Assembly (NCBI RefSeq): GCF_020991085.1
Contig: NZ_CP087719.1
Location: forward strand, 434,001 to 498,000
Direction of reading: 5' to 3'
DNA length: 64,000 bases
From: Roseomonas sp. OT10
GTDB lineage: Bacteria; Pseudomonadota; Alphaproteobacteria; Acetobacterales; Acetobacteraceae
Part shown: one piece after another, positions 3,267 to 64,000 of the stretch
Numbering within the stretch: position 1 is the stretch's first letter
Layout of the letters: each line of letters starts with the position of its first letter
Made by a program: the position numbers and the translations under genes
The notes under the pieces: model-generated
Told to the model about the DNA's origin: nothing
The model's input: only the letters and a program-made list of their open reading frames with translations
Databases searched by the model: none

Positions 3267-6119
3267 ATGGCGGCCGGCCTGACCTATTCCGTCTCCAATG
3301 ACTGGGGCAGCGGCTTCACCGCCAACCTGACCGTGGCCGCCGGCGCGACGGCGCTGAACGGCTGGACCGTCGAGTTCGACGCCGGCTTCACCATCACCAA
3401 CATCTGGGGCGCGGAGATCGTCAGCCGGGCCGGCACGCACTACGTGCTGCGCAGCCTCGGCTGGAACGCCTCGGTCCCGGCCAACGGCACGGTGACGCTG
3501 GGCTTCCAGGCGAGCGCCGGCAGCGGCGGCAACCAGGCAGCGAACCTCACCCTCAACGGCGCCGGGACGGGCGGCGGCCCGCCCGTGGAGCTCCCGGCCG
3601 TCAGCGTCGCCGACGTCTCCGTGACGGAGGGCGCGGCGGGCACCAAGGTGATGGAGTTCGCCGTCACCCTCTCCAAGCCGGCGGCGGCGCCCGTGTCGGT
3701 CGCCTACGCCACCGCCGACGGCACGGCCCTGGCCGGCAGCGACTACGTCGCGCAGTCGGGCAGCCTGACCTTCGCGGCGGGCGAGACGCGCAAGGTCGTG
3801 CAGGTCGCGGTCAAGGGCGACACGGCGGCCGAGGCGGACGAGACCCTCGCGCTGCGCCTCTCCGGCGCCAGCGGCGCCACCCTGGCCCGCGCCACGGCGA
3901 CCGGCACCATCCTCAACGACGACATCCCCCCTGCCACGCCGCCCGAACTGCGGATCAGCGACGCGACGGTGACGGAGGGCCATTCGGGCACCCGCGACGC
4001 CGTCTTCACCATCAGCCTCTCCCACGCCGCCACCGGGCCGGTGACGGTGCGCTACGCCACGGTGGGGCAGACGGCGACGGCGGGCAGCGACTTCACCGCC
4101 GCCTCGGCCACGCTGACCTTCGCCGCCGGCGAGACCAGCAAGACCGTCGCCATCAAGGTGCTGGGCGACACGCTGGCCGAGGCGAACGAGAAGTTCATGG
4201 TCATGCTCGGCAACGCCACCGGCGCGACGATCGCCGACAACCGCGGCGACGGCACGATCCTGGACGACGATGCCGCCCCGCTCCCCGCGCTCTCGGTGAA
4301 CGATGTCGCCGTGGCCGAGGGGAATGCCGGCACCACCAACGCCACCTTCACCGTCAGCCTGTCCCAGGCCGCGTCCGCCCCGGTGACGGTGCGCTACGCC
4401 ACGGCCAACGGCACGGCGACGGCGGGCAGCGACTATGCCGCCGCGTCCGGCACGCTGACCTTCGCCGCCGGCGAGACCAGCAAGACGGTGACGGTGAAGG
4501 TGACCGGCGACACGGCGGTGGAGGCCGACGAGGGCTTCACCCTGCTCCTGTCCGGCGCCACCGGCGCCACCATCGCCGACGGCACGGGCGCCGCCACCAT
4601 CCGCAACGACGACGCCGCGGCGCTGCCGGCGCTGCGCGTGGCGGACGCCTCGGTGGCGGAGGGGAACCCCGCCGTCGCCGGCGACGGCGTGGCGGCCGGC
4701 TGGTTCCATACCGCGGGCAACCAGATCGTCGACGCCGCGGGCAAGCCGGTGCAGATCGCGGGCATCAACTGGTTCGGGATGGAATCCGGCACCTTCTCCC
4801 CGCACGGGCTGTGGGCCCGCGACTACCGGGAGATGATGGACCAGATGGCGGAGCTGGGCTTCAACACCATCCGCCTGCCCTTCTCCTCCGACCTGCTCCG
4901 CGCCACCGCGATCAACGGCATCGAGGCCAATCCGGGGCTGCAGGGCCTGACCGGCCTGCAGATGATGGACAGGATCGTGGAGTATGCCGGCCAGATCGGC
5001 CTGCGCATCATCCTGGACCACCACCGCAGCAGCGCCGGCGCCGGCACCTCCGAGAACGGTCTGTGGTACGACGCGCAGCACCCGGAATCGCAGTGGATCG
5101 GCGACTGGAAGATGCTGGCCGCGCGCTATGCCGACAATCCCACGGTGATCGGCGCCGACCTGCACAACGAGCCCCACAACGGCAGCTGGGGCGGCGGCGG
5201 CGCCAACGACTGGGCGGCGGCGGCGGAACGCGCCGGCAACGCCGTCCTGTCGGTCAACCCGAACTGGCTGATCTTCGTGGAGGGGGTCAGCACCTACCAG
5301 GGGCAGAACTACTGGTGGGGCGGCAACCTGATGGGGGTGAAGGACCGGCCGATCGTGCTCGACGTGGCCGACCGGCTGGTCTACTCGGCGCACGACTACC
5401 CGAACTCGGTCTACGGACAGAGCTGGTTCTCCGAGCCGGGATTCCCCAACAACCTGCCGGCGAAGTTCGAGCAGATGTGGGGCTACATCTACGAGCAGAA
5501 CATCGCGCCGGTCTGGCTCGGCGAGTTCGGCAGCAAGCTCGTCGACCCCAAGGACCAGGCCTGGCTGGACAAGATCACCGCCTACCTCTCGGGCGACTTC
5601 GACGCCAACGGCACCAACGACCTCGCCGCCGGCAAGACCGGGCTGAACTGGACCTGGTGGTCCTGGAACCCGAATTCCGGCGACACCGGCGGCATCCTGC
5701 AGGACGACTGGCGCACGGTGCATGCCGGCAAGCTGGCGGAGCTGGCCCCGATCCAGTTCGACTTCGGCGAGGGCGGCGGCACGGCGGGCGATGCGAACAG
5801 CCTGGCCTTCACCGTCACCCTCTCCGCTCCCGCCAGCGGCAGCGTGCTGGTGGACTACCGCACCGTGGCGGGCACGGCCGGCAGCGCGGACTTCACCGGC
5901 GTCTCCGGGACCCTGGCCTTCGCCGCGGGGGAGACGAGCAAGACGATCCTGGTGCCGGTCACCGCCGATCTGGCGCAGGAGGCGAACGAGACCCTGTCGC
6001 TGCTGCTCTCCAACCCCCGCGGCGCGACGCTGGCGGACGCCACGGGGATCGGCACCATCCTGAACGACGACCTCGCCATCGCTGCGACCGCCCGCGTGGC
6101 CAGCACCGACCTGCTGTAG
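3267..6119 (+). CDS. Multidomain secreted GH5 cellulase with CBM2-like and Calx-beta domains
   Basis: Predicted endoglucanase of glycoside hydrolase family 5, 950 residues. Residues 1-100 look like a CBM2 cellulose-binding domain (Trp in NDWGSGF, GWTVEFD, LGWNAS). Three Calx-beta repeats follow at about 109-220, 226-336 and 338-450, each ending in a T-I-x-N/D-D-D turn. A fourth begins near 452 (LRVADASVAEGN) but is interrupted by the GH5 domain (about 475-825), and Calx-beta sequence resumes at about 828-940. The GH5 part resembles Acidothermus E1; the acid/base Glu is E635 in DLHNEPH and the nucleophile E753 in WLGEFGSKL. There is no N-terminal signal peptide, so type I secretion is plausible but no transporter is nearby. 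The ATG at 3267 follows GAGCGAGGG and starts exactly at the CBM-like fold. Confidence 0.9.
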   Translation: MAAGLTYSVSNDWGSGFTANLTVAAGATALNGWTVEFDAGFTITNIWGAEIVSRAGTHYVLRSLGWNASVPANGTVTLGFQASAGSGGNQAANLTLNGAGTGGGPPVELPAVSVADVSVTEGAAGTKVMEFAVTLSKPAAAPVSVAYATADGTALAGSDYVAQSGSLTFAAGETRKVVQVAVKGDTAAEADETLALRLSGASGATLARATATGTILNDDIPPATPPELRISDATVTEGHSGTRDAVFTISLSHAATGPVTVRYATVGQTATAGSDFTAASATLTFAAGETSKTVAIKVLGDTLAEANEKFMVMLGNATGATIADNRGDGTILDDDAAPLPALSVNDVAVAEGNAGTTNATFTVSLSQAASAPVTVRYATANGTATAGSDYAAASGTLTFAAGETSKTVTVKVTGDTAVEADEGFTLLLSGATGATIADGTGAATIRNDDAAALPALRVADASVAEGNPAVAGDGVAAGWFHTAGNQIVDAAGKPVQIAGINWFGMESGTFSPHGLWARDYREMMDQMAELGFNTIRLPFSSDLLRATAINGIEANPGLQGLTGLQMMDRIVEYAGQIGLRIILDHHRSSAGAGTSENGLWYDAQHPESQWIGDWKMLAARYADNPTVIGADLHNEPHNGSWGGGGANDWAAAAERAGNAVLSVNPNWLIFVEGVSTYQGQNYWWGGNLMGVKDRPIVLDVADRLVYSAHDYPNSVYGQSWFSEPGFPNNLPAKFEQMWGYIYEQNIAPVWLGEFGSKLVDPKDQAWLDKITAYLSGDFDANGTNDLAAGKTGLNWTWWSWNPNSGDTGGILQDDWRTVHAGKLAELAPIQFDFGEGGGTAGDANSLAFTVTLSAPASGSVLVDYRTVAGTAGSADFTGVSGTLAFAAGETSKTILVPVTADLAQEANETLSLLLSNPRGATLADATGIGTILNDDLAIAATARVASTDLL

Positions 6120-10579: not shown

Positions 10580-11005
10580 TTATACCGACAGTGGGATGGA
10601 GTTGACCCGTCATGCTGTCGTGTTCGGGCGGCGGACCGGGAGGGGACGCCGTCCCCTCCCAGACCCTCCCCTGCCGGGGCCACAAGCGGGCCCCGGTCCC
10701 CGCTGGGAGTCTGGCTCTACGCGGTGGGCGTCAGCCTGCGGGCTCAACCCTGACGGAACGCGGACAGATGGGACTCCGAAGAAGCAATTAGGGGCGTCCG
10801 CGAGCGCGGACCCTGTACCCGCCGAGGAGCATGGCTCCTCGGCGCCTCGACCCCGTGTCCGGCTGTCCCGCGGCAGCGCTGATCGGGTCCAGGGCCCGCA
10901 GGGTCCTGGCGGAGTGGGGGTACGGGGGCGAGGCAGCGCCTTGCCCCCGGGCCACGGGCGCACCCCGCGCCGGCATGGATCAGGGCATCCCGCCGTCCGT
11001 ATCAG
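10580..11005 (+). repeat. Copy A of the ~420-bp structured intergenic element
   Basis: This fills the gap between the convergent putR and ech genes. In order it contains a hairpin GGGAGGGGACG/CGTCCCCTCCC, a GGGGCC/GGCCCC hairpin, a perfect palindrome around GAGGAGCATGGCTCCTC, a CCAGGGCCCGCAGGGTCCTGG hairpin, and a GGGGGCGAGGC/GCCTTGCCCCC hairpin. The ends are imperfect inverted repeats; the right end read inward is CTGATACGGACGGCGGG and its TGA is the stop codon of ech. Copies B, C, D, F and G share the same order of blocks. No convincing coding frame lies inside. Confidence 0.85.
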
Positions 11006-14993: not shown

Positions 14994-15995
14994 ATGGCGA
15001 TGACGACCTATCCCCTGTCGCGCCGGCGCGTGCTCGGCGTCGCGGCGCTCGCCGCCCTGGCCCGGCCGGCGCTGGTGCAGCCGGCCCTGGCGCAATCCTG
15101 GCCCAGCCGGCCGATCCGCTACATCGTCACCTTCCCGCCCGGCGGCAGCGGCGATGCGCTGGCGCGCGTGCTGGCGCCGGTCGTGGGCGAGCGGCTGGGC
15201 CAGCCGATCGTCGTGGAGAACCGCCCCGGCGCCGGCGGCAACATCGGCATGGATGCCGTCGCCAAGGCGGCGCCGGACGGCTACACGCTGGGGCAGGGGC
15301 CGGCCGGCGCGCTGACCGTCAACCCCAGCCTCTACCCCGCCCTGCCCTTCGACCCGCTGCGCGACTTCGCCCCGGTCACCATGCTGGGCGGCACGCCCTT
15401 CCTGCTCGCGGTGCGGGCCCGCTCCGAGCTGCATGGCCTGGGCGATCTGCTCACCGCGGCGCGCGCGCGGCCGGACCGGCTGACCGTGGCGCATGGCGGC
15501 GTGGGCAGCGCCATGCACCTGACCGCCGAGCTGCTGAACCAGGCCGGGCAGATCCGCCTGATCACCGTGCCCTATCGCGGCGTGGGCCCCTCCCTCACCG
15601 CGCTGCTCTCCGGCGACACCGACCTGGCGGTGCTCGACCCGCCCGCGGCCCTGCCGCTGATTGCCGACGGGCAGATCCGCGCCCTCGCGGTCAGCTCGCC
15701 ACAGCGCATGCCCCAGCTTCCGGACGTGCCCACCGTGGCCGAAGCCGGGCTGGGCGGCTTCGAATCCCTGGGCTGGCTCGGCCTGGTCGCGCCCGCCGCC
15801 ACGCCCGCGCCGATCCTGGCGCGGCTGCACGAGGTCTTCACCGGCGCGCTGCGCGACCCGGCCGTGCTGGAGCGCCTGAACACCATCGGCGTCACGGCAC
15901 AACCCACCACCTCCGCGGAGTTCGCGGCCATCATCCGCAGCGAGACGGAGAAGTGGGGCAAGGTCGTGCGCGCCGCCGGCATCCGGGTGGAGTGA
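14994..15995 (+). CDS. Tripartite tricarboxylate transporter (Bug/TctC-type) substrate-binding receptor
   Basis: Periplasmic receptor of 333 residues with an N-terminal Tat-like signal, SRRRVLGVAALAALA, cleaved near ALAQS. The mature start WPSRPIRYIVTFPPGGSGD and the motif VVENRPGAGGNIGMDAVAKA are typical. A second in-frame ATG at 15000 is possible. It is divergent from the CoA-transferase operon and shares a candidate operator with ech, so it may capture a phenylpropanoid-related acid; this is inference. No permease genes are near. Its TGA stop (15993-15995) is the first three bases of repeat element B. Confidence 0.9.
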   Translation: MAMTTYPLSRRRVLGVAALAALARPALVQPALAQSWPSRPIRYIVTFPPGGSGDALARVLAPVVGERLGQPIVVENRPGAGGNIGMDAVAKAAPDGYTLGQGPAGALTVNPSLYPALPFDPLRDFAPVTMLGGTPFLLAVRARSELHGLGDLLTAARARPDRLTVAHGGVGSAMHLTAELLNQAGQIRLITVPYRGVGPSLTALLSGDTDLAVLDPPAALPLIADGQIRALAVSSPQRMPQLPDVPTVAEAGLGGFESLGWLGLVAPAATPAPILARLHEVFTGALRDPAVLERLNTIGVTAQPTTSAEFAAIIRSETEKWGKVVRAAGIRVE

Positions 15996-16411
15996 TCCGC
16001 ACGGCGTGATGCATTGACGTCTGGTAGTTGGCACCCGTTCCCCGGGGGCAAGGCTCTGCCTCGCCCCCGTACCCCCACTCCGCCAGGACCCTGCGGGCCC
16101 TGGACTCGGTGGGCGCTGCCGCGGGACAGCCTGACACGGGGTCGAGGCGCCGAGGAGCTTGGCTCCTCGGCGGGTACGGCCGCAGCACTCGGGGACACCT
16201 TCTGAAGCTTTATCCAGAGTCCTGCCTGTCCGCGCTCCGTCAGGGTTCAGCCCGGAGGCTGACGCCCACCCGAAGTACCAGACTCCCAGCGGGGTCCGGG
16301 GCCCGCTTGTGGCCCCGGCAGGGGAGGGTCTGGGAGGGGACGGCGTCCCCTCCCGGTCCCACGCCCGAACATCACGGCACCACGGGCCACGTCATCCCGC
16401 CACCCGTGTGA
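15993..16411 (-). repeat. Copy B of the ~420-bp structured intergenic element (reverse orientation)
   Basis: It has the same blocks as copy A in reverse order: the GCCTCGCCCCC hairpin, CCAGGACCCTGCGGGCCCTGG, the palindrome around GAGGAGCTTGGCTCCTC, the CCGGGGCCCGC hairpin and GGGAGGGGACG. It begins GTGATCCGCACGGCGTG, where the TGA is the receptor's stop codon, and ends near TCATCCCGCCACCCGTGTGA. It sits between convergent genes. 16412-16501 shows nothing further. Confidence 0.85.
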
Positions 16412-29197: not shown

Positions 29198-30436
29198 TCA
29201 GGGCGGGATGAGGCGGTTGATCAGGCTGACCATGTCAGCCTGGCGCCGGCAGCCGGTCTTGGCGCGCAGCGCGGCGAGCTGGCCGCGCAGCGTCCCGGGC
29301 GAGAGCCCCCGCCGCGTGGCGAAGTCCTTCGCGCTGATGCCGCGCACCATGGCGGAGGCGAGGGCAGCCTCCGCCGGGCTCAGCCCCAGCATCTGGCGCA
29401 GCAGCGCCATGGAGGGGCCGAGCCGCGCCTCGGCATCCGTCACCAGGAGCATCACGCCGCGGAAGGGCGCGGGGCCGACGGCCTGGAGCCAGCTCGGCAG
29501 CCGCTCGCGGGGCAGCAGCGGCACGGCCTGGACCAGCCAGGGCGCGGCGCCGGAGGGACGCGGGATCGCCACCGTGCCGGCATCGATCAGCAGGTGGACC
29601 TTGCCCTGGGCCGCCGCCAGCGTCGCCTCGATGGCATGGGCGAGGTTGCGGCGCGGCTTGGCTTCCGCGCAGTAGAGGCCGCGCTGGCTGAGGGTGAAGC
29701 CGTCGTTCAGCTCCGACATCCGCTGCAGTTGGGCATTGGCGTGCAGCAGCCGGCCATCCTGCGAGAGGATCGCCACCCCGTGCGGCAGGGTGTCGATCGC
29801 CATGCGCAGGGACGAATCCGGCAGGGTGAGGCGGCTGCGCGCCGTGATGACACGCCGCAGATGCGGATAGACCGCGTTCAGCAGGCTTTCCTCGCGCGGG
29901 CCGAACGGCTCGCGCTGACGCGTCCGGTACGCGCCGAAGCAGGCTCGCATCTCCCCCTGCTGCTCCAGCGTCGCCGCCATGCAGTGGAAGGAGCCGATGC
30001 GGCGGCTGGTGAACTCGTTCCAGACGGGGGTGCGGGCATAGGCCTCGCCCGGCAGGATGCGCTCCAGATTCGCCACGCCCGGCGGCAGCGCGGCGATCAC
30101 CTCCATGCGCGGGTCGCGGTGGATCCAGTGGGCCTGGTACTCAGGGGCGGCGGCCTGGTCGATGTTCATCATCGCCAGCCTCTCCCCCCGCAGGACCTGC
30201 GGCCCGTCGAGCATCAGGGCGAAGGTGACGGAGGTATCGGCGCCCAGGCTGCGAGCCAGGGCAGCGAGGGGGACTCCCAGGTCGGCGTCCTCGGCCAGCG
30301 CCGCGTAGAGGTCGAGCGCCAGCGCTTCGGGTAAGGCCGGGTCTGTCTCGGACCGTAAGGGCGCTGACAAGGTCTTCCTGCGCGGTGGGGGACGGGACGG
30401 CGTCAGTCTAGCCGAGGCCAGACAGGTTGAGATCAT
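29198..30436 (-). CDS. LuxR-type HTH transcriptional regulator with a PAS-like sensor
   Basis: A 412-residue regulator. The C-terminal LuxR helix-turn-helix is GLSPAEAALASAMVRGIS followed by FATRRGLSPGTLRGQLAALR. The middle (about 200-260) reads like a PAS fold (MAIDTLPHGVAILSQDGRLL, then HANAQLQRMSELNDGFTLSQ). The N-terminal 180 residues lack a recognised receiver domain, so it is not a standard response regulator. ATG at 30436 is the upstream-most plausible start; the first 30 residues look poorly conserved and a later start is possible. No target gene is evident. Confidence 0.82.
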   Translation of the reverse strand: MISTCLASARLTPSRPPPRRKTLSAPLRSETDPALPEALALDLYAALAEDADLGVPLAALARSLGADTSVTFALMLDGPQVLRGERLAMMNIDQAAAPEYQAHWIHRDPRMEVIAALPPGVANLERILPGEAYARTPVWNEFTSRRIGSFHCMAATLEQQGEMRACFGAYRTRQREPFGPREESLLNAVYPHLRRVITARSRLTLPDSSLRMAIDTLPHGVAILSQDGRLLHANAQLQRMSELNDGFTLSQRGLYCAEAKPRRNLAHAIEATLAAAQGKVHLLIDAGTVAIPRPSGAAPWLVQAVPLLPRERLPSWLQAVGPAPFRGVMLLVTDAEARLGPSMALLRQMLGLSPAEAALASAMVRGISAKDFATRRGLSPGTLRGQLAALRAKTGCRRQADMVSLINRLIPP

Positions 30437-30612
30437 CCGAAAGGAGGATGCCAGCCCCGTTTCGTCAGCCGAACCGAATCTCTGACGTAACCCCCGGGGT
30501 GAAACGGGAGCCGCCGGGCTGCCCGCCGCATCCGGGGCCGGGCTGAGGCCATGGGGCCGGGGAGCGCCGGGCCGCCGGCTGCCGGGCAACGCCCCCGATG
30601 CGGCGAGCCCTG

Positions 30613-31033
30613 TCATACCGGCGGCGGGATGACCTGACCGGTCGCGCTGTGGTGTTCCGGCGGCGGACCGGGAGGGGACGCCGTCCCCTCCCAGACCCTC
30701 CCCTGCCGGGGCCACAAGCGGGCCCCGGACCCCGCTGGGAGTCTGGCGCTTCGTGGCTGTCGTCAGCCTGCGGGCTGAACCCTGACGGAACGTGGTCAGG
30801 CGGGACTCTGAAAAAGCATCACAGGCGTCAGCGAGGGCGGCGGCCGGTCCCGCCGAGGAGCATGGCTCCTCGGCGCCGCGACCCCGTCGCAGGCTGTCCC
30901 GCGGCAGCGCCAAATGGGTCCAGGGCCCGCAGGGTCCTGGCGGAGTGGGGGTATCGGGGGCGAGGCGGAGCCTTGCCCCCGGGCCACGGGTACCACGCCG
31001 GCACGGATCAACGCATCACGCCGCGCGGATCAG
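30613..31033 (+). repeat. Copy C of the ~420-bp structured intergenic element
   Basis: Same block order as copy A: GTCATACCGGCGGCGGGATG at the left, GGGAGGGGACG hairpin, CCGGGGCC hairpin, GAGGAGCATGGCTCCTC palindrome, CCAGGGCCCGCAGGGTCCTGG, GGGGGCGAGGC hairpin, and the right end whose inward reading is CTGATCCGCGCGGCGTG. The TGA of that end is the stop of the CoA-transferase gene (31030-31032). It lies between that gene and the LuxR gene start, not between convergent genes. 30437-30612 holds the LuxR upstream region with no gene seen. Confidence 0.85.
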
Positions 31034-32250
31034 ACCACCCGGGCCGTCCGCAGCGCCGCGATCTCCTCCTCGCTGTAGCCGGCCTCGGCCAGCACCTCCG
31101 CCGTGTGTTCGCCGGCGGCCGGCGGATGGCGGGTGAGTTGGCTGGGCGTGCGGGAGAGGGTGAAGGGCTGTGCCACGTAGGCGACCTCGCGGCCGTCCGC
31201 GTCGAGGTTCTGCGCCATGCCCAGGTGCTGCACCTGGGGATCGGCGAAGACCTGGTCGATGCTGTTGATCGGGCCGCAGGGCACCCCGGCGGCGTTCAGC
31301 CGCTCCACCCAATCGGCGCCGCTCCGCTGCCGGGTGCGCTCCGCGATCAGGGCGTTCAGCGTGGCACGGTTGGCGGAACGGGCGGGGCCGTCGGCGAAGC
31401 GCGCATCCTCCGCCCATTCCGGCGCCTCCAGCGCCTCGCAGAGACGGCGCCAGATGGCGTTGCCGGTGGTGGCGATGTTGATGTGCCCGTCGGCCGTGGG
31501 GAAGACGCCGGTGGGGATGGCGGTCGGGTGGTCGTTGCCCGCCTGCTTCGCCACCTGGCCCTCCATCAGCCAGCGGCTGGCCTGGAAGTCGAGCATGAAG
31601 ATCTGGGCCTGCAGCAGCGAGGTCTGCACCCATTGCCCGCGGCCCGAGCGCTCGCGCTCCAGCAGGGCGGTCAGGATGCCCTGGGCGGCGAAGATCCCGG
31701 CGCAGAGGTCGGCCACGGGGATGCCCACCCGCATCGGCCCCTGGCCCGGCTGGCCGGTGATCGACATCAGCCCGCCCATGCCCTGGGCGATCTGGTCGAA
31801 GCCCGGCCGCTTCGCATAAGGGCCGTCCTGTCCGAAGCCGGAGATCGAGGCATAGATCAGGCGCGGGTTCACCGCCGACAGCGCCGCGTGGTCGATGCCC
31901 AGCCGGTGCTTCACGTCGGGGCGGAAGTTCTCCACCACCACGTCGGCCGTGGCGGCCAGGCGCTTCAGCACCGCCACCCCCTCCGGCGCCTTCAGGTTCA
32001 GGGTCAGCCCGCGCTTGTTGCGGTGCAGGTTCTGGAAGTCCGAGCCGGCGCGCGGGCCGCCCATCGGGTCGCCCCCCTCCAGCCCCGGCGGCGTCTCGAT
32101 CTTGATGACGCGCGCGCCCCAGTCCGCGAGTTGCCGGACGCAGGTCGGGCCCGCCCGCACCCGCGTCAGGTCGAGCACGGTGAGGCCGGCCAGGGCCCCG
32201 GAGGCGGCGGGTGCGTCGGTGCTGGTGGAGGAGGTCATGGCTTCCGGCAT
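31030..32250 (-). CDS. Class III (CaiB/BaiF) CoA-transferase
   Basis: A 406-residue family III CoA-transferase: LAGLTVLDLTRVRAGPTCVR, WGARVIKIETPPGLEGGDPM, DFQNLHRNKRGLTLNLKAPE, and the catalytic Asp in VGIPVADLCAGIFAAQGIL. The RVRAGPTCVRQLADWG form is seen in formyl-CoA-transferase-like members. It has no adjacent dehydrogenase or ligase and its substrate is unknown. Starts at 32250 (MPEAM) and 32238 (MTSST) are both reasonable. Its stop codon is formed by element C. Confidence 0.9.
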   Translation of the reverse strand: MPEAMTSSTSTDAPAASGALAGLTVLDLTRVRAGPTCVRQLADWGARVIKIETPPGLEGGDPMGGPRAGSDFQNLHRNKRGLTLNLKAPEGVAVLKRLAATADVVVENFRPDVKHRLGIDHAALSAVNPRLIYASISGFGQDGPYAKRPGFDQIAQGMGGLMSITGQPGQGPMRVGIPVADLCAGIFAAQGILTALLERERSGRGQWVQTSLLQAQIFMLDFQASRWLMEGQVAKQAGNDHPTAIPTGVFPTADGHINIATTGNAIWRRLCEALEAPEWAEDARFADGPARSANRATLNALIAERTRQRSGADWVERLNAAGVPCGPINSIDQVFADPQVQHLGMAQNLDADGREVAYVAQPFTLSRTPSQLTRHPPAAGEHTAEVLAEAGYSEEEIAALRTARVV

Positions 32251-35373: not shown

Positions 35374-35580
35374 ATGAACTCCCGTGACAACCTCCGCATG
35401 CTCCATGGCAAGGCCGTCGAGGCCCGGGCCCAGCACGTGGCCGCGGCCCTGGACCGGCCGCATTACGCGCCGGCCGGCCGCCAACTGCCCGCGGCCCAGA
35501 AGATGGTGGACGGGCTGCGCCGGGAACTGACCCCGAGCCTGCGGGACGAGGCCGACGCGCCACTCCGGCGGGAGGACTGA
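35374..35580 (+). CDS. Small hypothetical protein, 68 residues
   Basis: It begins MNSRDNLRMLHGKAVEARAQ at the ATG at 35374, with AGAGGAAA 8 nt upstream. It is charged, helix-rich and soluble-looking, without membrane segments or Cys. Its stop TGA (35578-35580) is part of the terminal repeat of element D. It lies 139 bp after the hybrid kinase gene in the same direction. Function unknown. Confidence 0.6.
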   Translation: MNSRDNLRMLHGKAVEARAQHVAAALDRPHYAPAGRQLPAAQKMVDGLRRELTPSLRDEADAPLRRED

Positions 35581-35994
35581 TACGCGCGGCGCGATGCGCC
35601 GACCGTTGCTGGCGTGGCGCCCGTGGCCCGAGGGCAAGGCTCCGCCTCGCCCCCGTACCCCCACTCCGCCAGGACCCTGCGGGCCCTGGACCCGAGGGGC
35701 GCTGCCGCGGGACAGCCTGCGTCGGGGTCGAGGCGCCGAGGAGCTTGGCTCCTCGGCGGGACCGGTGTTCGCGCTCGCTGACGCCTTCAAAGACTTTCTG
35801 GAGTCCCGCCTGTCCGCGTGCCGTCAGGGATCAGCCCGCAGGCTGACGGCAGTCACGTAGCACCAACTCCCAGCGGGGTCCGGGGCCCGCTTGTGGCCCC
35901 GGCAGGGGAGGGTCTGGGAGGGGACGGCGTCCCCTCCCGGTGCCGACGCCGGGGCATCAGGCGCGACAGGCCACGACATCCCGCCGCCCGCATG
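35577..35994 (-). repeat. Copy D of the ~420-bp structured intergenic element (reverse orientation)
   Basis: Begins CTGATACGCGCGGCGCG, where TGA is the stop of the small gene. It then shows the GCCTCGCCCCC hairpin, CCAGGACCCTGCGGGCCCTGG, GAGGAGCTTGGCTCCTC, the CCGGGGCCCGC hairpin and GGGAGGGGACG, ending near CATCCCGCCGCCCG. It lies between convergent genes. It matches copy B in layout. Confidence 0.85.
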
Positions 35995-39860: not shown

Positions 39861-40184
39861 GCGTGCGTCCTGTCGGCCCCGGCACCCCGGCGATCCGGGC
39901 GGGGCGGTGGTGCGGACACGGAGGCTGCGGGGGGTTCGCCGTCGGCCCGCCCCCCGGTCTCCCCGGGGGTACGGGTGCCCGGCGTCTCGGGCGGCATGGA
40001 AGGCCGCGGCGTCCAGTCGCGGCAAGGAACCATGTGGCCGGAAACGCCGCAGCGCGGCTCCATCCGTCAGCCCGCCGCATACGCGGAAGGCGGGCGCGAC
40101 CGGTCCGGCCGCACCCTGCGCGGCGCTATATGCCCCCCCGCGCCCCGCATTGCCAGGGGATTGTGCGGGAGACGCACGGCGCGT

Positions 40185-40535
40185 TGTTCCCGCGCCGGAT
40201 CGGGAGGAGGCGCTGCCTCCCCCGAGCCCCCCTCCGCCGGGGCCCGAGGCCGGGCCCCGGACCCCGGCGGAGGGGGGTGCTGCGCGGTGGGTGTCAGCCT
40301 GCGGGCTGAACCCTGGCGGAGCACGAAAGGGCGGAACTCCGAAGAAGCGTCATGGTCGTCCACAAGGGCGACGGCCGTGCCCGCCGAGGAGCATGGCTCC
40401 TCGGCGCCGCGACCCCGTCGCAGGCTGTCCCGCGGCAGCGCCAATCGGGTCCAGGGCCCGCAGGGTCCTGGCGGAGTGGGGGTATCGGGGGCGAGGCAGC
40501 GCCTTGCCCCCGGGGAACGGACGCACCCCACGCCG
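40185..40535 (+). repeat. Divergent copy E of the structured intergenic element
   Basis: The first part is replaced by a different hairpin set (GGGAGGAGGCGCTGCCTCCC; CCCCTCCGCCGGGGCCC and CGGGCCCCGGACCCCGGCGGAGGGG). From about 40285 it rejoins the family: CAGCCTGCGGGCTGAACCCT, the GAGGAGCATGGCTCCTC palindrome, CCAGGGCCCGCAGGGTCCTGG and GGGGGCGAGGC. The terminal repeat is degraded and it does not provide a stop codon; the hydrolase gene ends with TAG at 40547. The 39861-40184 stretch before it holds the pnp upstream region and no gene was seen. Confidence 0.7.
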
Positions 40536-40546
40536 GGTGGCCGGGG

Positions 40547-41587
40547 CTAGGCCGCCGCGGCGAGGCGGCGCGGCACCTCCGCCTGCCCGGCCAGCCGCAG
40601 CACCGCCTCCGCCACCCGTTCGGTGGCCAGGTGGTGCAGCATGTGGCCGGTGCCGGGCACCACCTCCAGCGTGGCGTCCGGCAGGGCGGCGTGCAGCGCC
40701 CGGGCCTGCCGCAGCTCCACCACCTTGTCGCCGTCGCCGGCCAGGATCGCCACCGGCAGGCGCATCTCCCCGTAGCGGCGGCGCAGCGAGGCGGCGCCCG
40801 GCACCATCAGCGCCGTATCCTCCGCCGCGGCGCGGAGCTGCGACGGGCGCAGGGCCATCTCGCGCGGGAAGCCGTCCCGGAAGCCGGGCGTGACCGGGGC
40901 GGGGGCGAAGAGCTTGCGGATCATGGCGGGCAGCATCAGCCGCCCCAGCAGCGGCGAGAGAGTGTAGCGCAGGACGTCGCCGAGGATGGGGATGGCGGGC
41001 GGCGACATCAGCAGCACGTCCTTGCGGAAGGTCGGGACGTAGTAGCCGGAGGCCAGCACCAGCCCCGACGCCGCCTCCGGATGCTCCTGCGCCAGGGCCA
41101 GGGCAACCATCGTGCCCCAGGAATGGCCGACCACCACGGGCCGCTCCACCCCGATCCGCCGTAGCGCCCCGGCCACCAGCGCGGCCTGGGCCTGCGGCGT
41201 CCAGAGGCGGTCGCGCGGCCGCTCGCTGTGGCCGAAGCCCGGGCGGTCGAGAACGATCACGCGGTGGCGGCGCGCCAGCCGCGCCGGCAGGCCGCTGATG
41301 AGCCAGTCCTCCACCATGGTGCCGTTGCCGTGCAGCAGCAGCACCGGCGGCCCCTCGCCACGGTCGGTGTAGTGCAGCCGGACGCCGTCCACCTCGACGA
41401 AGCGGCCGACCGGGGGGCAACGCCGCTCGGCCCGCCGCGCCAACGCGTGGTTGGCCAGGGCCGTCGCCGCCAGCGCCACGGCGCCGCCGATCAGCCATGG
41501 CCCGGCGGAGGAGGCCAGCGGCGCGGAACGGACAGGAGAGGACAAGGCAGGCCGCGCGCGGGCGGCGAGCTGGGCGAGAAGGCTCAT
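40547..41587 (-). CDS. Alpha/beta hydrolase, probably membrane-anchored
   Basis: Alpha/beta-hydrolase fold, 346 residues. N-terminal hydrophobic stretch GPWLIGGAVALAATALA suggests a membrane anchor. The oxyanion region is PPVLLLHGNGTMVEDW, the nucleophile Ser is in VVGHSWGTMVAL, the acid in LAGDGDKVV, and the His in PGTGHMLHHLA. Substrate not deducible; such enzymes include esterases and haloalkane dehalogenase-like proteins. The ATG at 41587 places the anchor correctly; the longer open frame upstream is GC-rich noise. Confidence 0.88.
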   Translation of the reverse strand: MSLLAQLAARARPALSSPVRSAPLASSAGPWLIGGAVALAATALANHALARRAERRCPPVGRFVEVDGVRLHYTDRGEGPPVLLLHGNGTMVEDWLISGLPARLARRHRVIVLDRPGFGHSERPRDRLWTPQAQAALVAGALRRIGVERPVVVGHSWGTMVALALAQEHPEAASGLVLASGYYVPTFRKDVLLMSPPAIPILGDVLRYTLSPLLGRLMLPAMIRKLFAPAPVTPGFRDGFPREMALRPSQLRAAAEDTALMVPGAASLRRRYGEMRLPVAILAGDGDKVVELRQARALHAALPDATLEVVPGTGHMLHHLATERVAEAVLRLAGQAEVPRRLAAAA

Positions 41588-53269: not shown

Positions 53270-54298
53270 ATGCGTATCGGGATGGTCGGGCTGGGGCGGA
53301 TGGGGGCGAACCTGGCCCGCCGCCTGCTGCGCGCGGGGCACGAGGCGGTGGTGTGGGACCGCGACGCGGCCGCCGTCGCCGCCCTGGCGGGGGAGGGCGC
53401 GCGCGGCGCGGACGGGCTGGCCGGGCTGGTGGCGCAGCTGGAGGCGCCGCGCACGGTCTGGGTGATGCTGCCGGCGGGCGCGGCGACGGAGGGGGCGGTG
53501 GCCGAGCTGGCCGGGCTGCTCTCGGCCGGCGACTGCATCATCGAGGGCGGCAACTCCAACTGGAAGGATTCCCGCCGTCGCGCCGCCGAGGTGGCGGAGA
53601 AGGGCGTGGACTACCTCGACATCGGCACCTCGGGCGGGGTCTGGGGGCTGGAGCGCGGCTATTGTCTGATGATCGGCGGCCCGGCCGGCACGGTGCAGCG
53701 CCTCGACCCCGTCTTCGCCGCGCTCGCCCCGGGCGAGGGAAGCGCCGCCCCGACGCCGGGGCGCACGGGCGACCCCCGTCCGCCGCGCGGCTACGTCCAT
53801 GCCGGGCCGAACGGCGCCGGGCACTACGCCAAGATGATCCACAACGGCATCGAGTACGGCATGATGCAGGCCTTCGCCGAAGGCTTCGACCTGCTGCGCG
53901 CGGCCAACGAGACGCACGGCCTGGACATCCCGCTGCCGGACGTGGCCGAGGCCTGGCGCCGCGGCTCCGTCGTCGCCTCCTGGCTGCTCGACCTGACGGC
54001 GCAGGCGCTGGCGGGCGACCCGGCGCTGGCGGCCTATGCCGGCCGCGTCGGCGATTCCGGCGAGGGCCGCTGGACCGTGCAGGAGGCGGTGGAGACGGGC
54101 ACCCCGGCCCCCGTGCTGACCGCCGCCCTCTATGCCCGCTTCCGCTCGCGCCAGGAGGCCTCCTTCGCCGACCGGGCGCTCTCGGCGATGCGCCACGCCT
54201 TCGGCGGTCACGTCGAGCCCCCGGCGACGGCCGGGACCGTGCCCCCCAGCGCGTCGGGCGGGCATCCGGCCGCACCGCAGCCCCCCGCCAGCCGGTGA
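53270..54298 (+). CDS. gnd: 6-Phosphogluconate dehydrogenase, decarboxylating (short type)
   Basis: Oxidative pentose phosphate enzyme: 6-phosphogluconate to ribulose 5-phosphate and CO2. At 342 residues it belongs to the short GndA/YqeC-type branch (about 300-340), not the 470-residue enterobacterial type. Rossmann motif MRIGMVGLGRMGANLARRLL; substrate motifs IIEGGNSNWKDSRRRA, DIGTSGGVWGLERGYCLMIG, and GAGHYAKMIHNGIEYGMMQA. GCAGGAG lies 11 nt before the ATG. It overlaps or abuts gluconokinase, so gluconate catabolism is likely. The C-terminal 30 residues are Pro/Ala-rich. Confidence 0.93.
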   Translation: MRIGMVGLGRMGANLARRLLRAGHEAVVWDRDAAAVAALAGEGARGADGLAGLVAQLEAPRTVWVMLPAGAATEGAVAELAGLLSAGDCIIEGGNSNWKDSRRRAAEVAEKGVDYLDIGTSGGVWGLERGYCLMIGGPAGTVQRLDPVFAALAPGEGSAAPTPGRTGDPRPPRGYVHAGPNGAGHYAKMIHNGIEYGMMQAFAEGFDLLRAANETHGLDIPLPDVAEAWRRGSVVASWLLDLTAQALAGDPALAAYAGRVGDSGEGRWTVQEAVETGTPAPVLTAALYARFRSRQEASFADRALSAMRHAFGGHVEPPATAGTVPPSASGGHPAAPQPPASR

Positions 54299-54306
54299 GC
54301 GGCGGC

Positions 54307-54816
54307 ATGCCTCCCCGGCTGCGCGTGGTGGTGATGGGCGTCTCCGGCGCCGGCAAGAGCACGGTGGGCAAGGGGCTCGCCGACCGGCTGGGCCTGCCCT
54401 TCGGCGATGCGGACGACTTCCACCCGCCCGCCAACATCGCCAAGCAGGCGGCCGGCCAGCCGCTGAACGACGACGACCGCGCCCCCTGGCTGGCGGCGAT
54501 CGGGGCTTGGCTTGCCAGCGAATCGGGTGGGGTGGCGACCTGCTCGGCGCTGAAGCGGGCCTATCGCGACCGCCTGCGCGCCGCCTGCCCGGGCGTCGCG
54601 TTCCTGCACCTGACCGGCCCGCAGGCCCTGATCGCCGCGCGGCAGGCAGCGCGGAAGGGGCATTTCATGCCGGCCTCCCTGATCGCGAGCCAGTTCGCCA
54701 CGCTGGAGATCCCCGACCCGGAGGAGGGGGTGATCCCGCTCGACGTCTCGCTGGCGCCGGAGGCACTGGTGGAGATCGCGGTGGCCGAACTGTCGCGCCG
54801 GTCGGCCGGGACCTGA
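54307..54816 (+). CDS. gntK: Gluconokinase
   Basis: Phosphorylates gluconate to 6-phosphogluconate. The P-loop is VVMGVSGAGKSTVGKGLA, followed by FGDADDFHPPANIAKQAAGQ, LNDDDRAPWLAAIGAWL, CSALKRAYRDRLR and KGHFMPASLIASQFATLE, all standard for the family. At 169 residues the length is right. A GTG at 54295, overlapping the gnd stop by four bases, is an alternative start. Its TGA stop (54814-54816) lies in the left end of element F. With gnd it forms a gluconate operon. Confidence 0.94.
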   Translation: MPPRLRVVVMGVSGAGKSTVGKGLADRLGLPFGDADDFHPPANIAKQAAGQPLNDDDRAPWLAAIGAWLASESGGVATCSALKRAYRDRLRAACPGVAFLHLTGPQALIAARQAARKGHFMPASLIASQFATLEIPDPEEGVIPLDVSLAPEALVEIAVAELSRRSAGT

Positions 54817-55226
54817 TCCGGCCGGTGGAATGACCCGCTGTTCTGCGTGCTCGGGCGTCGGACCGGGAGGGGACGCCGTCCCCTCCCAGACCCTCCCCTG
54901 CCGGGGCCACAAGCGGGCCCCGGTCCCCGCTGGGAGTCTGGTGCTTCCGGTAGGCGTCAGCCTGCGGGCTGCACCCTGACGGAGCTCGGACAGGCGGGAC
55001 TCCGAAAAAGGTTCAGAGCGCGTCAGCGAGAACGGACACCGTACCCGCCGAGGAGCATGGCTCCTCGGCGCCTCGACCCCGTGTCAGGCTGTCCCGCGGC
55101 AGCGCCCTTTGGGTCCAGGGCCCGCAGGGTCCTGGCGGAGTGGGGGTACGGGGGCGAGGCAGCGCCTTGCCCCCGGGGAACCGGCACCCCGCTGGCACGG
55201 ATCAATGCATCCTGCCGTCCGTATGA
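54813..55226 (+). repeat. Copy F of the ~420-bp structured intergenic element
   Basis: Begins CTGATCCGGCCGGTGG at the gluconokinase stop codon and ends near CATCCTGCCGTCCGTATGAG. Inside are GGGAGGGGACG, CCGGGGCC, GAGGAGCATGGCTCCTC, CCAGGGCCCGCAGGGTCCTGG and GGGGGCGAGGC hairpin blocks in the order of copy A. Here the left end, not the right end, supplies the stop. Confidence 0.85.
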
Positions 55227-61184: not shown

Positions 61185-62090
61185 TCAGGCCGCCAGGGCT
61201 ATGGCCTCCTGGGCGGCATAGTAGCGCGCCTCCGCCTCGGCGGGCGGGATGTTTCCGATCGGCTCGAGGAGGCGGCGGTTGTTGAACCAGTCCACCCATT
61301 CGAGGGTGGCGAACTCGACGCCCTCCAGGCTGCGCCACGGGCCGCGGCGCCGAATGACCTCGGTCTTGAACAGGCCGATGACGCTCTCGGCCAGCGCGTT
61401 GTCGTAGCTGTCGCCGACGCTGCCGACCGACGGCTCGATGCCCGCTTCCGCCAGGCGCTCGGTGTAGCGGATAGACACGTATTGGACCCCGCGATCGCTG
61501 TGATGGATCAGCCCCATGCCCTGGACAGGCCGCCGGTCATGCAGCGCCTGCTCCAGGGCATCCAGGACGAAGCCAGCATGGGAGGTGCGCGACACCCGCC
61601 AGCCGACGATCCGCCGCGCGAAGGTGTCGATGACGAAGGCGACGTAGACGAAGCCCTGCCAGGTCGCGACGTAGGTGAAGTCCGACACCCAGAGCAGGTT
61701 CGGCCGCGGCGCCAGGAACTGCCGGTTTACCCGGTCGGCCGGGCATGGCGCGCCCTTGTCGGGCACCGTCGTCCTGGTCTCCTTGCCACGCACCACGCCG
61801 CGCAGGCCCATCTGGCGCATCAGCCGCGCCACCGTGCAGCGGGCGACCGACGTCCCCTCGCGGCCGAGCTGGCGCCAGACCTTCCGCACGCCGTAGACGC
61901 CGAAGTTCTCGGCGTGGACCCGCCGCACCTCCGCCCGCAGCATGCTGTCCCGCTGCGACCTGGCCGAGCCCAGAGTGGGATCGGCGCGGCGCGCGGCATG
62001 GGCGTGGTAGGTGGACGGGGCGATCGGCAGAACCCGGCAGATCGACTCGACCCCGTACACGCCCCGATGATCGTCGATGAAGGCGATCAT
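61185..62090 (-). CDS. IS3-family transposase OrfB (DDE integrase core)
   Basis: 301 residues with an HTH_21 region ([20 protein letters not shown]) and the rve integrase core. The DDE residues are in [37 protein letters not shown] and [17 protein letters not shown]. The ATG at 62090 overlaps the OrfA stop as ATGA; active transposase in this family is usually an OrfAB frameshift product, but here coupling by overlap is also possible. No disruption was seen. Confidence 0.95.
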
Positions 62091-62419
62091 GGCTTCGACC
62101 GGCGGTCGAGCTCCGCCAGGGCAAAATACGCTGATGCCTTGCGCAGGATCTCGTTCGCCTGGCGCAGCTCGCGGTTCTCCCGCTCCAGCGCCTTGATGCG
62201 ATCCCGATCCTCGCTCGTGGGCCCGGCACGCTTGCCGCGGTCACGCTCGGCCTGCCGGACCCAGCGACGCAGCGTCTCCGCCGTGCAGCCGATCTTCGCC
62301 GCGATCGAGCCGATCGCCGCCCATTGCGAGCCATGCTCCCCGGCGCCGTCCAGCACCAGCCGCACCGACCGCTCCCGAACCTCAGGCGAGTAGCTCGCCG
62401 CCGTCTTCTTCGCCGTCAT
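62087..62419 (-). CDS. IS3-family transposase OrfA (helix-turn-helix)
   Basis: 110 residues: HTH region [20 protein letters not shown] followed by a leucine-zipper-like helix [20 protein letters not shown] and [13 protein letters not shown], the typical OrfA tail. It binds the IS ends and, fused to OrfB by frameshifting, forms the transposase. Starts 24 bp inside the right inverted repeat. Confidence 0.95.
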
Positions 62420-62541: not shown

Positions 62542-63303
62542 ATGTCCGGATGGGGATCGGGACGCGGCCCGGGGGTGGAGCCGGGTGGCTTCGGCTACCG
62601 GCCGCCGGCGAATCTGCTGGGCGACTTCTCCCTGCACCTCGACCCGACGCTGCTGGTCCCGATCAACGGCTGGTGGCTGCAACCCTCGGACGGGAAGGGG
62701 GCGCGGCTGGGCTCGCTGCTGCCCAACGGCTTCGACTGGTCGATCCTGCCGGCATTGAGCGGCTTCGCCCGCGACATGGCCGGGCCGGGCCAGGCCAACC
62801 CATCCCAGAACTTCGCCCGGAACATCCAGGCCAATGGCGGCCTGCCCTGGGACAAGATCCGCGACTTCGTGGGCGAGCAGGCCAAGAGCGCCTTCTGGAA
62901 GGATCTGCTGGTGCGGGGCACGCGCAACATGGTCACCGGCGAGCCCGCCAGCATCGGCAAATGGGATGCCTCCGGGATGGCGGTGCCGGACGGCGTGGAC
63001 GGCTCGACCGTCGCCGGCACCGGGCTCGACACCCGCATGCTCTCCGCCATCGGGCTGGGCAGCGGCGCGCTGGGCCTGGGCAAGCGCTTCCGTTTCGTCA
63101 GCGACACCGATGTCAGCCTTCTGATCTTCATCGACAAGGATGCCTACCCCGACAAGCCGGCCTGGCTGTTCGGCGGCGGCGGCGTGAACATCCAGAAGCC
63201 GCTGGATGGCGGGAAGGTCTGGAACATCAAGATCGGCGGCGGCCGCGACCAGCTCGGCGGCCTCGGCATCTTCGGCGTGCTGAGCATCTCTCCGAAGGAC
63301 TGA
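62542..63303 (+). CDS. Unknown Gly-rich protein, 253 residues
   Basis: Starts MSGWGSGRGPGVEPGGFGYR; GTGGAGGCGAG precedes the ATG at 62542. The body is mixed alpha/beta-looking with FSLHLDPTLLVPINGWWLQP, WDKIRDFVGEQAKSAFWKDL and the end RDQLGGLGIFGVLSISPKD. No signal peptide, TM helix or family motif recognised. Its upstream region (62473-62541) is AT-rich and directly abuts the IS, which may have separated it from an older promoter. Its TGA stop is supplied by element G. Function unknown. Confidence 0.75.
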   Translation: MSGWGSGRGPGVEPGGFGYRPPANLLGDFSLHLDPTLLVPINGWWLQPSDGKGARLGSLLPNGFDWSILPALSGFARDMAGPGQANPSQNFARNIQANGGLPWDKIRDFVGEQAKSAFWKDLLVRGTRNMVTGEPASIGKWDASGMAVPDGVDGSTVAGTGLDTRMLSAIGLGSGALGLGKRFRFVSDTDVSLLIFIDKDAYPDKPAWLFGGGGVNIQKPLDGGKVWNIKIGGGRDQLGGLGIFGVLSISPKD

Positions 63304-63692
63304 TCCGGACGGCGGGGTGTGGTCCGTTGCGCTGCGGTGTTCCGGCGTGGGACCGGGAGGAGAGGCCGTCCTCTCCACGGACCCTCCCCTGCCGGGGCCA
63401 CAAGCCGGCCCCGGACCCCGCTGGGAGGCTGGTGCTTCCGGTGAGCGTCAGCCTGCGGGCTGAACCCTGACGGAACGCAGACAGGCGGGACTCCGAAAAA
63501 GGCTCAGAGCGCGTCAGTGAGTGCGGCCACCGTACCCGCCGAGGAGCCATGCTCCTCGGCGCTGTGACCCCGTATCAGGCGTCCCGCGGCAGCACTGATC
63601 GGGTCCAGGGCCCGCAGGGTCCTGGCGGAGTGGGGGTACGGGGGCGAGGCAGAGCCTTGCCCCCGGGGGACCGGTGCCACGCCCGCGCGTCA
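63300..63692 (+). repeat. Copy G of the ~420-bp structured intergenic element
   Basis: Begins CTGATCCGGACGGCGGG at the stop codon of the gene before it. The first hairpin is altered (GGGAGGAGAGGCCGTCCTCTCC), the CCGGGGCC, GAGGAGCCATGCTCCTC, CCAGGGCCCGCAGGGTCCTGG and GGGGGCGAGGC blocks follow, and the right terminal repeat is degraded. It lies between convergent genes. Confidence 0.8.
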
Positions 63693-63703
63693 CCCCGCTT
63701 CCG

Positions 63704-64000
63704 CTACAGCCGCGCCGTCCATCCGGGCGCGCCCTGCCGCCCGTCGCCGATCAGTGCGAAGGGCGCCCAGTAGAAGGGGTGGCCAAAGCTTTCGGGCAGG
63801 CGTTTCCCCGCCTCGTCGAGGATCAGCAATTGTGCGCCGCGCAGCGCCGCCGCCGTGGAATCGCCCTCCTTCTGCCGGCGCAGCAGGTCGGCCACGGTCA
63901 GCGCCGAGGCTGCGTCGTCCACGGACCAGTGCGTCGCCAGCAGCCCGCGGGCTCCTGCGTAGAAGAAGGCGCGCGCCAGCCCAGACAGCGCCTCGCCGCC
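63704..64000 (-). CDS. CHAT-domain protein, C-terminal end (partial)
   Basis: The frame enters from the right edge and ends at 63704. The 98 visible residues match the end of a CHAT (caspase HetF-associated with TPRs) protease domain: GEALSGLARAFFYAGARGLL, ATHWSVDDAASALT, and HPFYWAPFALIGDG. The catalytic His-Cys dyad and any TPR repeats lie outside the window. CHAT proteins cut partner proteins and some act in phage defence or secretion-linked systems; no partner can be judged here. Confidence 0.85.
   Translation of the reverse strand, partial: GGEALSGLARAFFYAGARGLLATHWSVDDAASALTVADLLRRQKEGDSTAAALRGAQLLILDEAGKRLPESFGHPFYWAPFALIGDGRQGAPGWTARL

Follow-up and report, generated by a model that had tools for sequence, protein, structure and literature searches.

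Stop codons at the ends of a MITE-like repeat in Roseomonas sp. OT10 are very likely reused TNA insertion sites

A 64 kb stretch of the Roseomonas sp. OT10 genome (RefSeq accession number NZ_CP087719.1; coordinates 434001–498000), referred to here as the window, was found to carry several copies of a short repeat lying directly against the stop codons of neighbouring genes. The reference copy, a MITE-like element of 414 bp (window coordinates 30616–31029, forward strand), was delimited by end mapping and by comparison with the repeat family. The left target-site duplication is TCA (30613–30615), and the right one is also TCA (31030–31032). Gene calling, end mapping and orthologues identify the right TCA, read on the reverse strand, as the TGA stop codon of a gene for a family III CoA-transferase (PF02515; 31030–32250, reverse strand).

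Five further copies in the window abut a stop codon, as placed by end mapping and gene calls. A 419 bp copy (10583–11001, forward strand) is flanked by TTA and TCA, and the TCA at its right end (11002–11004) is the TGA stop of ech, a reverse-strand gene assigned by Pfam to the enoyl-CoA hydratases. The next copy, of 413 bp (15996–16408, reverse strand), has TCA on both sides when read in its own orientation (16409–16411 and 15993–15995), and the duplication at 15993–15995 is the TGA stop of a forward-strand gene for a TctC/Bug receptor, also assigned by Pfam. A copy of 412 bp (35581–35992, reverse strand) is flanked by CCA and TCA in its own orientation, with the triplet at 35578–35580 forming the TGA stop of a small forward-strand gene (35374–35580) without a Pfam match. 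TGA is present on both sides (54814–54816 and 55224–55226) of a 407 bp copy (54817–55223, forward strand), where the left duplication is the stop of a gene (54295–54816) encoding a P-loop kinase according to Pfam and named gluconokinase in the sequence-only reading. The sixth copy, of ~403 bp (63304–63706, forward strand), has a right end that falls under the threshold, making this limit approximate, and at its left end lies the TGA stop (63301–63303) of a gene (62575–63303) that has no Pfam match and no match among 14 congeners. All six stop positions given in the sequence-only reading, in which each copy was said to abut a neighbour's TGA exactly, were reproduced, as was its division into four stops at right ends and two at left ends.

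The flanking triplets are identical in three of these six copies (TCA, TCA and TGA) and match at two of three bases in another two, and for the copy at 63304 the pair is undefined. A seventh copy (40148–40563, forward strand; limits approximate), located by its repeat family and by end mapping, has no recognised terminal repeats, duplication or adjoining stop. The window also includes an IS3-type element (61185–62419) with an ALIL frameshift pseudoknot (RF01497; 62016–62132, reverse strand) and an integrase-core ORF, and a set of internal direct repeats spaced at 342–348 bp (3585–4712) within a called gene (3267–6119).

The six stop-abutting copies range from 403 to 419 bp, which is too short for a transposase gene, and have the inverted ends TACSGACGGCGGGATG. 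In an alignment of 58 copies, the inverted ends were TACCGACGGCGGGATG on the left and the complement of TACGGACGGCGGGATG on the right, with T-N-A flanking the element on both sides. The TGA or TCA is thus a 3 bp TNA target-site duplication and lies outside the element. The element has the traits of a MITE, namely terminal inverted repeats, a target-site duplication, shortness and a high copy number.

To place these copies in a wider setting, 1.664 Mb of DNA, equal to 29% of the genome and drawn from regions that are not a random selection, was sampled (0–0.4, 3.2–3.6 and 4.0–4.8 Mb of contig C1, plus the window). The GC content of the genome is 71–73%, and 1483 genes were called in the sampled DNA using our own caller, which relies on codon usage. 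A profile search identified 106 copies covering more than 250 model positions. Inverted ends of ~16 bp were recognised at both termini in 55 of these, and end statistics refer to the 55 copies, with the remaining 51 excluded. The TNA was identical on either side in 30 of the 55, and a flanking triplet was the stop codon of a neighbouring gene in 35, including 24 with identical TNA flanks. The stop was at the left end in 19 cases, at the right end in 16 and at both ends in none, indicating no orientation bias. Among the 51 excluded copies, seven had a stop exactly at the inferred end, bringing the overall count to 42 of 106.

The end pattern gave 171 matches in the host genome compared with none for a reversed control. 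Across 59 further genomes of the family, 58 from other genera and one from a congener, each genome had zero to four matches, and there were none in 400 kb of the congener G012. When two mismatches were allowed, 180 of 283 matches in the sampled DNA were outside element copies, and these solitary matches were taken as noise of a loose pattern. A scan of wider genome contigs with the end pattern returned seven records, from other lineages (Pseudomonas, Paenibacillus and clostridial). Both ends were weak in 30 of the 106 copies, which consist of the core only, in gaps of 277–686 bp and often between tandem genes, and these may be older or belong to a different subfamily. One copy near purD (G000:C1, ~3553194–3553614) was seen by eye to have flanks that form a perfect 10 bp inverted repeat around the TCA target, which takes the position of the loop, as though a hairpin loop may have been the target in this copy.

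The genetic context of the 55 copies was markedly skewed: gaps between convergent genes held 43, those between tandem genes 12 and those between divergent genes none, compared with 202, 1077 and 200 gaps of these types, respectively. The 30 copies with two weak ends include one in a divergent gap and many in tandem gaps. None of the 106 copies was within a called gene, a count that carries no weight since the caller would not join up a gene that a copy interrupts. This context fits the loss of harmful insertions. The layout agrees with one part of an earlier proposal, that insertions survive only where they close a frame at its end, in that survival appears to be in harmless places; closing of the frame by the element itself is not borne out.

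Between the ends of the element lies a core of ~330 nt, which in the reference copy (30663–30990, forward strand) is predicted by folding to contain several GC-rich hairpins and by alignment to be related to repeats in congeners. Relatives of the core at ~70% identity are numerous in the congeners G003, G004 and G012, another ten of the 14 congeners have fewer or shorter pieces, and relatives were found in two of 40 genomes of other genera. Those in the 400 kb stretch of G012 are without the ends of the host element. An alignment of 18 host and 15 G012 copies gave 95 consensus pairs, of which 21 show two-sided change in at least one copy, a count made without a shuffled control. The window copy folds better than 100 of 100 shuffles on each strand (z = −4.8 and −4.5). 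On the given strand the alignment folds somewhat better, and its paired positions hold G-U more often than A-C, although G-U is favoured by the prediction itself. The core may be a working RNA or a long-lived hairpin repeat. No match on the element was obtained from Rfam at gathering score, and a scan of one copy (30300–31300) for terminators and promoters found no intrinsic-terminator-like site and no promoter. Nothing was found that points to a role in translation termination, which had been raised in the sequence-only reading.

It is unlikely that the element persists because it works as a 3'-end structure, such as a bidirectional terminator or a protector of mRNA ends, and that its position at stops is selected. 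Its folding on two strands, the paired changes that span two species and the 43 of 55 copies in convergent gaps would suit such a role, but the copy that was scanned has no terminator-like site, stops are found at left and right ends without bias, and a convergent bias would also follow from selection against harm. Covariation in hairpins can also come from template switching. Quite unlikely too is a combined history, in which a covarying 3'-end element of ~330 nt at the level of the genus was taken up by a lineage-specific MITE that targets TNA, placing structured 3' ends directly after stop codons and genuinely, if mildly, preferring stops to other TNA sites.

How often a stop would be met by TNA targeting was assessed by restoring, for each of the 55 copies, the gap as it would be without the element and computing the chance that a random site in it is a stop. 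The median restored gap is 119 bp long, and the median number of TNA sites is three. A random base in the same gaps predicts 1.2 stop matches, compared with the 35 seen, whereas a random TNA predicts 29.9 ± 2.7 (p = 0.044). The expectation was 30.2 when only TGA or TCA was allowed (p = 0.053), 28.2 when the TNA was required to have C or G on both sides (p = 0.004), and 33.0 ± 2.6 when TNA sites were weighted by their flanks (p = 0.28), the weights having been drawn from the same copies and favouring the null. For the 30 copies with a perfect duplication, 24 stop matches were seen where 19.3 ± 1.9 were predicted by random TNA (p = 0.013) and 20.8 by flank-weighted TNA (p = 0.064). TNA targeting accounts for nearly all of the stop coincidence, and there may be a small excess. 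The view that the coincidence would be unlikely by chance holds against random positions, as the tabulation of copies and nearest stops over 1.664 Mb confirmed, but against TNA targeting it is reduced to a slight excess at most.

The identity of the stop codons provides a control. The 35 stop matches comprise 34 TGA, one TAA and no TAG, whereas TAG accounts for 15 of the remaining 63 gene ends that face into these 55 gaps (Fisher p = 0.0007). TAG also ends 89 of 404 convergent gene ends and 201 of the 1483 called genes, the remainder of which use TGA (1223) or TAA (59). TAG is not a TNA; it should also have been used if stop codons as such were the target. The suggestion that insertion targets stop codons is correct only indirectly, in that TNA includes TGA and TAA, and fails for TAG. 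An additional preference of the enzyme, on top of TNA, for stop codons or the 3' ends of genes, via a wider motif or a coupling to termination, is very unlikely. It could explain the excess over plain TNA in all 55 copies, that in the perfect-duplication copies and that obtained when C or G was required on both sides, but flank weighting weakens the excess in either set, TAG stops are unused, and selection against insertion between a stop and its terminator would yield an equal excess.

Comparison with congeners was possible for five of the genes with a stop match: sucB, the CoA-transferase gene, ech, purD and the kinase gene (54295–54816). Orthologues of sucB have the stop codon at the same position in 14 of 14 cases, and those of the CoA-transferase gene in all 11 tested (TAG in nine and TGA in two), with three other congeners left out as their matches were just 44–45%. 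For ech, the same codon is used in two of seven orthologues and the rest end at most three codons away (49–54% identity). None of the 14 purD orthologues ends at the same codon, the ends being from four codons earlier to five later, setting aside an offset of −11 codons in one orthologue, which proved to be a script artefact, as this orthologue ends like the others. The five relatives of the kinase gene, at ~48–57% identity, have poorly aligned, diverged tails and are from five codons shorter to one longer. In the 400 kb stretch of G012, eight of the 35 stop-match genes have a relative, mostly diverged, and two of the eight share the position of the stop. When the DNA downstream of the 46 orthologues of sucB, the CoA-transferase gene, ech and purD was searched with a profile, the element was found once, at purD of G003. 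The ancestral position of the stop is therefore clear for two genes, sucB and the CoA-transferase gene, judged from their aligned orthologues. The comparison of orthologous stops called for by the sequence-only reading gave a common codon for these two and differing ends for ech and purD.

A core element is present shortly downstream of purD in three congeners, in full in G003, in part in G004 and as a remnant-like sequence in G012, and the neighbouring gene differs from that in the host genome. This suggests that an older, independent insertion near purD has been decaying in the G003/G004/G012 clade.

The claim that the ends of the element supply the stop was rejected, as duplication mapping places the TGA in the duplicated target, orthologues of sucB and the CoA-transferase gene, with no element detected downstream, stop at the same codon, and TAG is absent. 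The left-end consensus has TGA in the other two frames within ~25 bp. Random capture of frames would be expected to place many stops within the element; of the 98 gene ends that face a copy, 35 stop at the flanking triplet and three inside the element. When the flanks of the 12 tandem copies were rejoined, the frame stopped at the upstream gene's own end in 11; in the other (segment D, 95435), in which a degenerate left triplet was kept, the joined flanks read through both genes. It is extremely improbable that the genes were formerly longer and that insertions survive by closing the frame, since, although stops are present in several frames of the element ends, three genes do end inside the element, the ends of purD and ech orthologues vary and one rejoined tandem copy reads through, this is opposed by the 35 ends at the flanking triplet, the shared codons of sucB and the CoA-transferase gene, the lack of TAG matches and the 11 rejoined frames.

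The IS1031 group of the IS5 family is described as preferring TNA and generating 3 bp repeats (PMC12016507), and the element resembles this group, as described there, in its 3 bp TNA target and duplication. The likeness is in the target alone; by structure the element is a MITE. The host genome holds a 954 bp IS5-family IS (NF033580) with clean TNA duplications, but its copies end in GAGTCTGATTCATAAT and GAGCCTGATCCGAAAT, which differ from the ends of the element, and host ISs of IS5 type were rejected as its partner on this mismatch. No partner transposase was found at 50 loci near matches to PF13340 (20 of 26) and PF01609 (30 of 34), two sets that overlap, where there were just weak unpaired matches to the element ends. 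Counting against TNA targeting as the explanation of the stops, a long open frame rarely ends at the duplication in the TNA-duplicating IS5 copies of the host (three of 15 viewed), mostly on contig C2 of the host genome (G000), a contig that carries nine of the 12 mapped copies of the 954 bp IS.

Palindromic intergenic repeats such as REPs are, like the element, rich in hairpins and intergenic. ERIC differs from the element in sequence and length. ERIC and other high-copy prokaryotic MITEs, as presented in a MITE review, share its shortness, intergenic location and hundreds of copies, with 711 copies of ERIC reported in Photorhabdus luminescens (PMC10969869). REPs are given as 20–40 bp (PMC3733652), whereas the element is ~410 bp and has inverted ends and a target-site duplication. 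The word 'stop' is absent from the main text of the MITE review (PMC10969869), and no account of a bacterial MITE that coincides with stop codons was found in those parts of the literature that were searched.

The stop coincidence is very likely explained by a non-autonomous MITE-like repeat that targets TNA and survives mainly between converging genes, an account built on the inverted ends, the duplicated TNA, the bias towards convergent gaps, the lack of TAG and the shared stop in orthologues of two genes demonstrated here. The moving enzyme, which would be a DDE transposase with IS1031-like specificity, would insert the element into a TNA and duplicate those three bases. The short gaps between the genes of this genome offer few TNA sites, with the TGA stop a large fraction of them, and stop abutment would be frequent because TGA stops make up a large share of intergenic landing sites in a GC-rich genome. 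Selection against harmful insertions would act as the filter, such that surviving copies are mainly those between convergent genes, with the original stop often reused as the target and the second triplet, on the opposite side, a by-product of insertion.

More generally, any mobile element with TNA as its target will, in a densely coded and GC-rich genome, seem to target stop codons, and the use of TGA versus TAG is a simple built-in control for such elements. The structured core, which has relatives in congeners, is the more curious part and merits separate attention.
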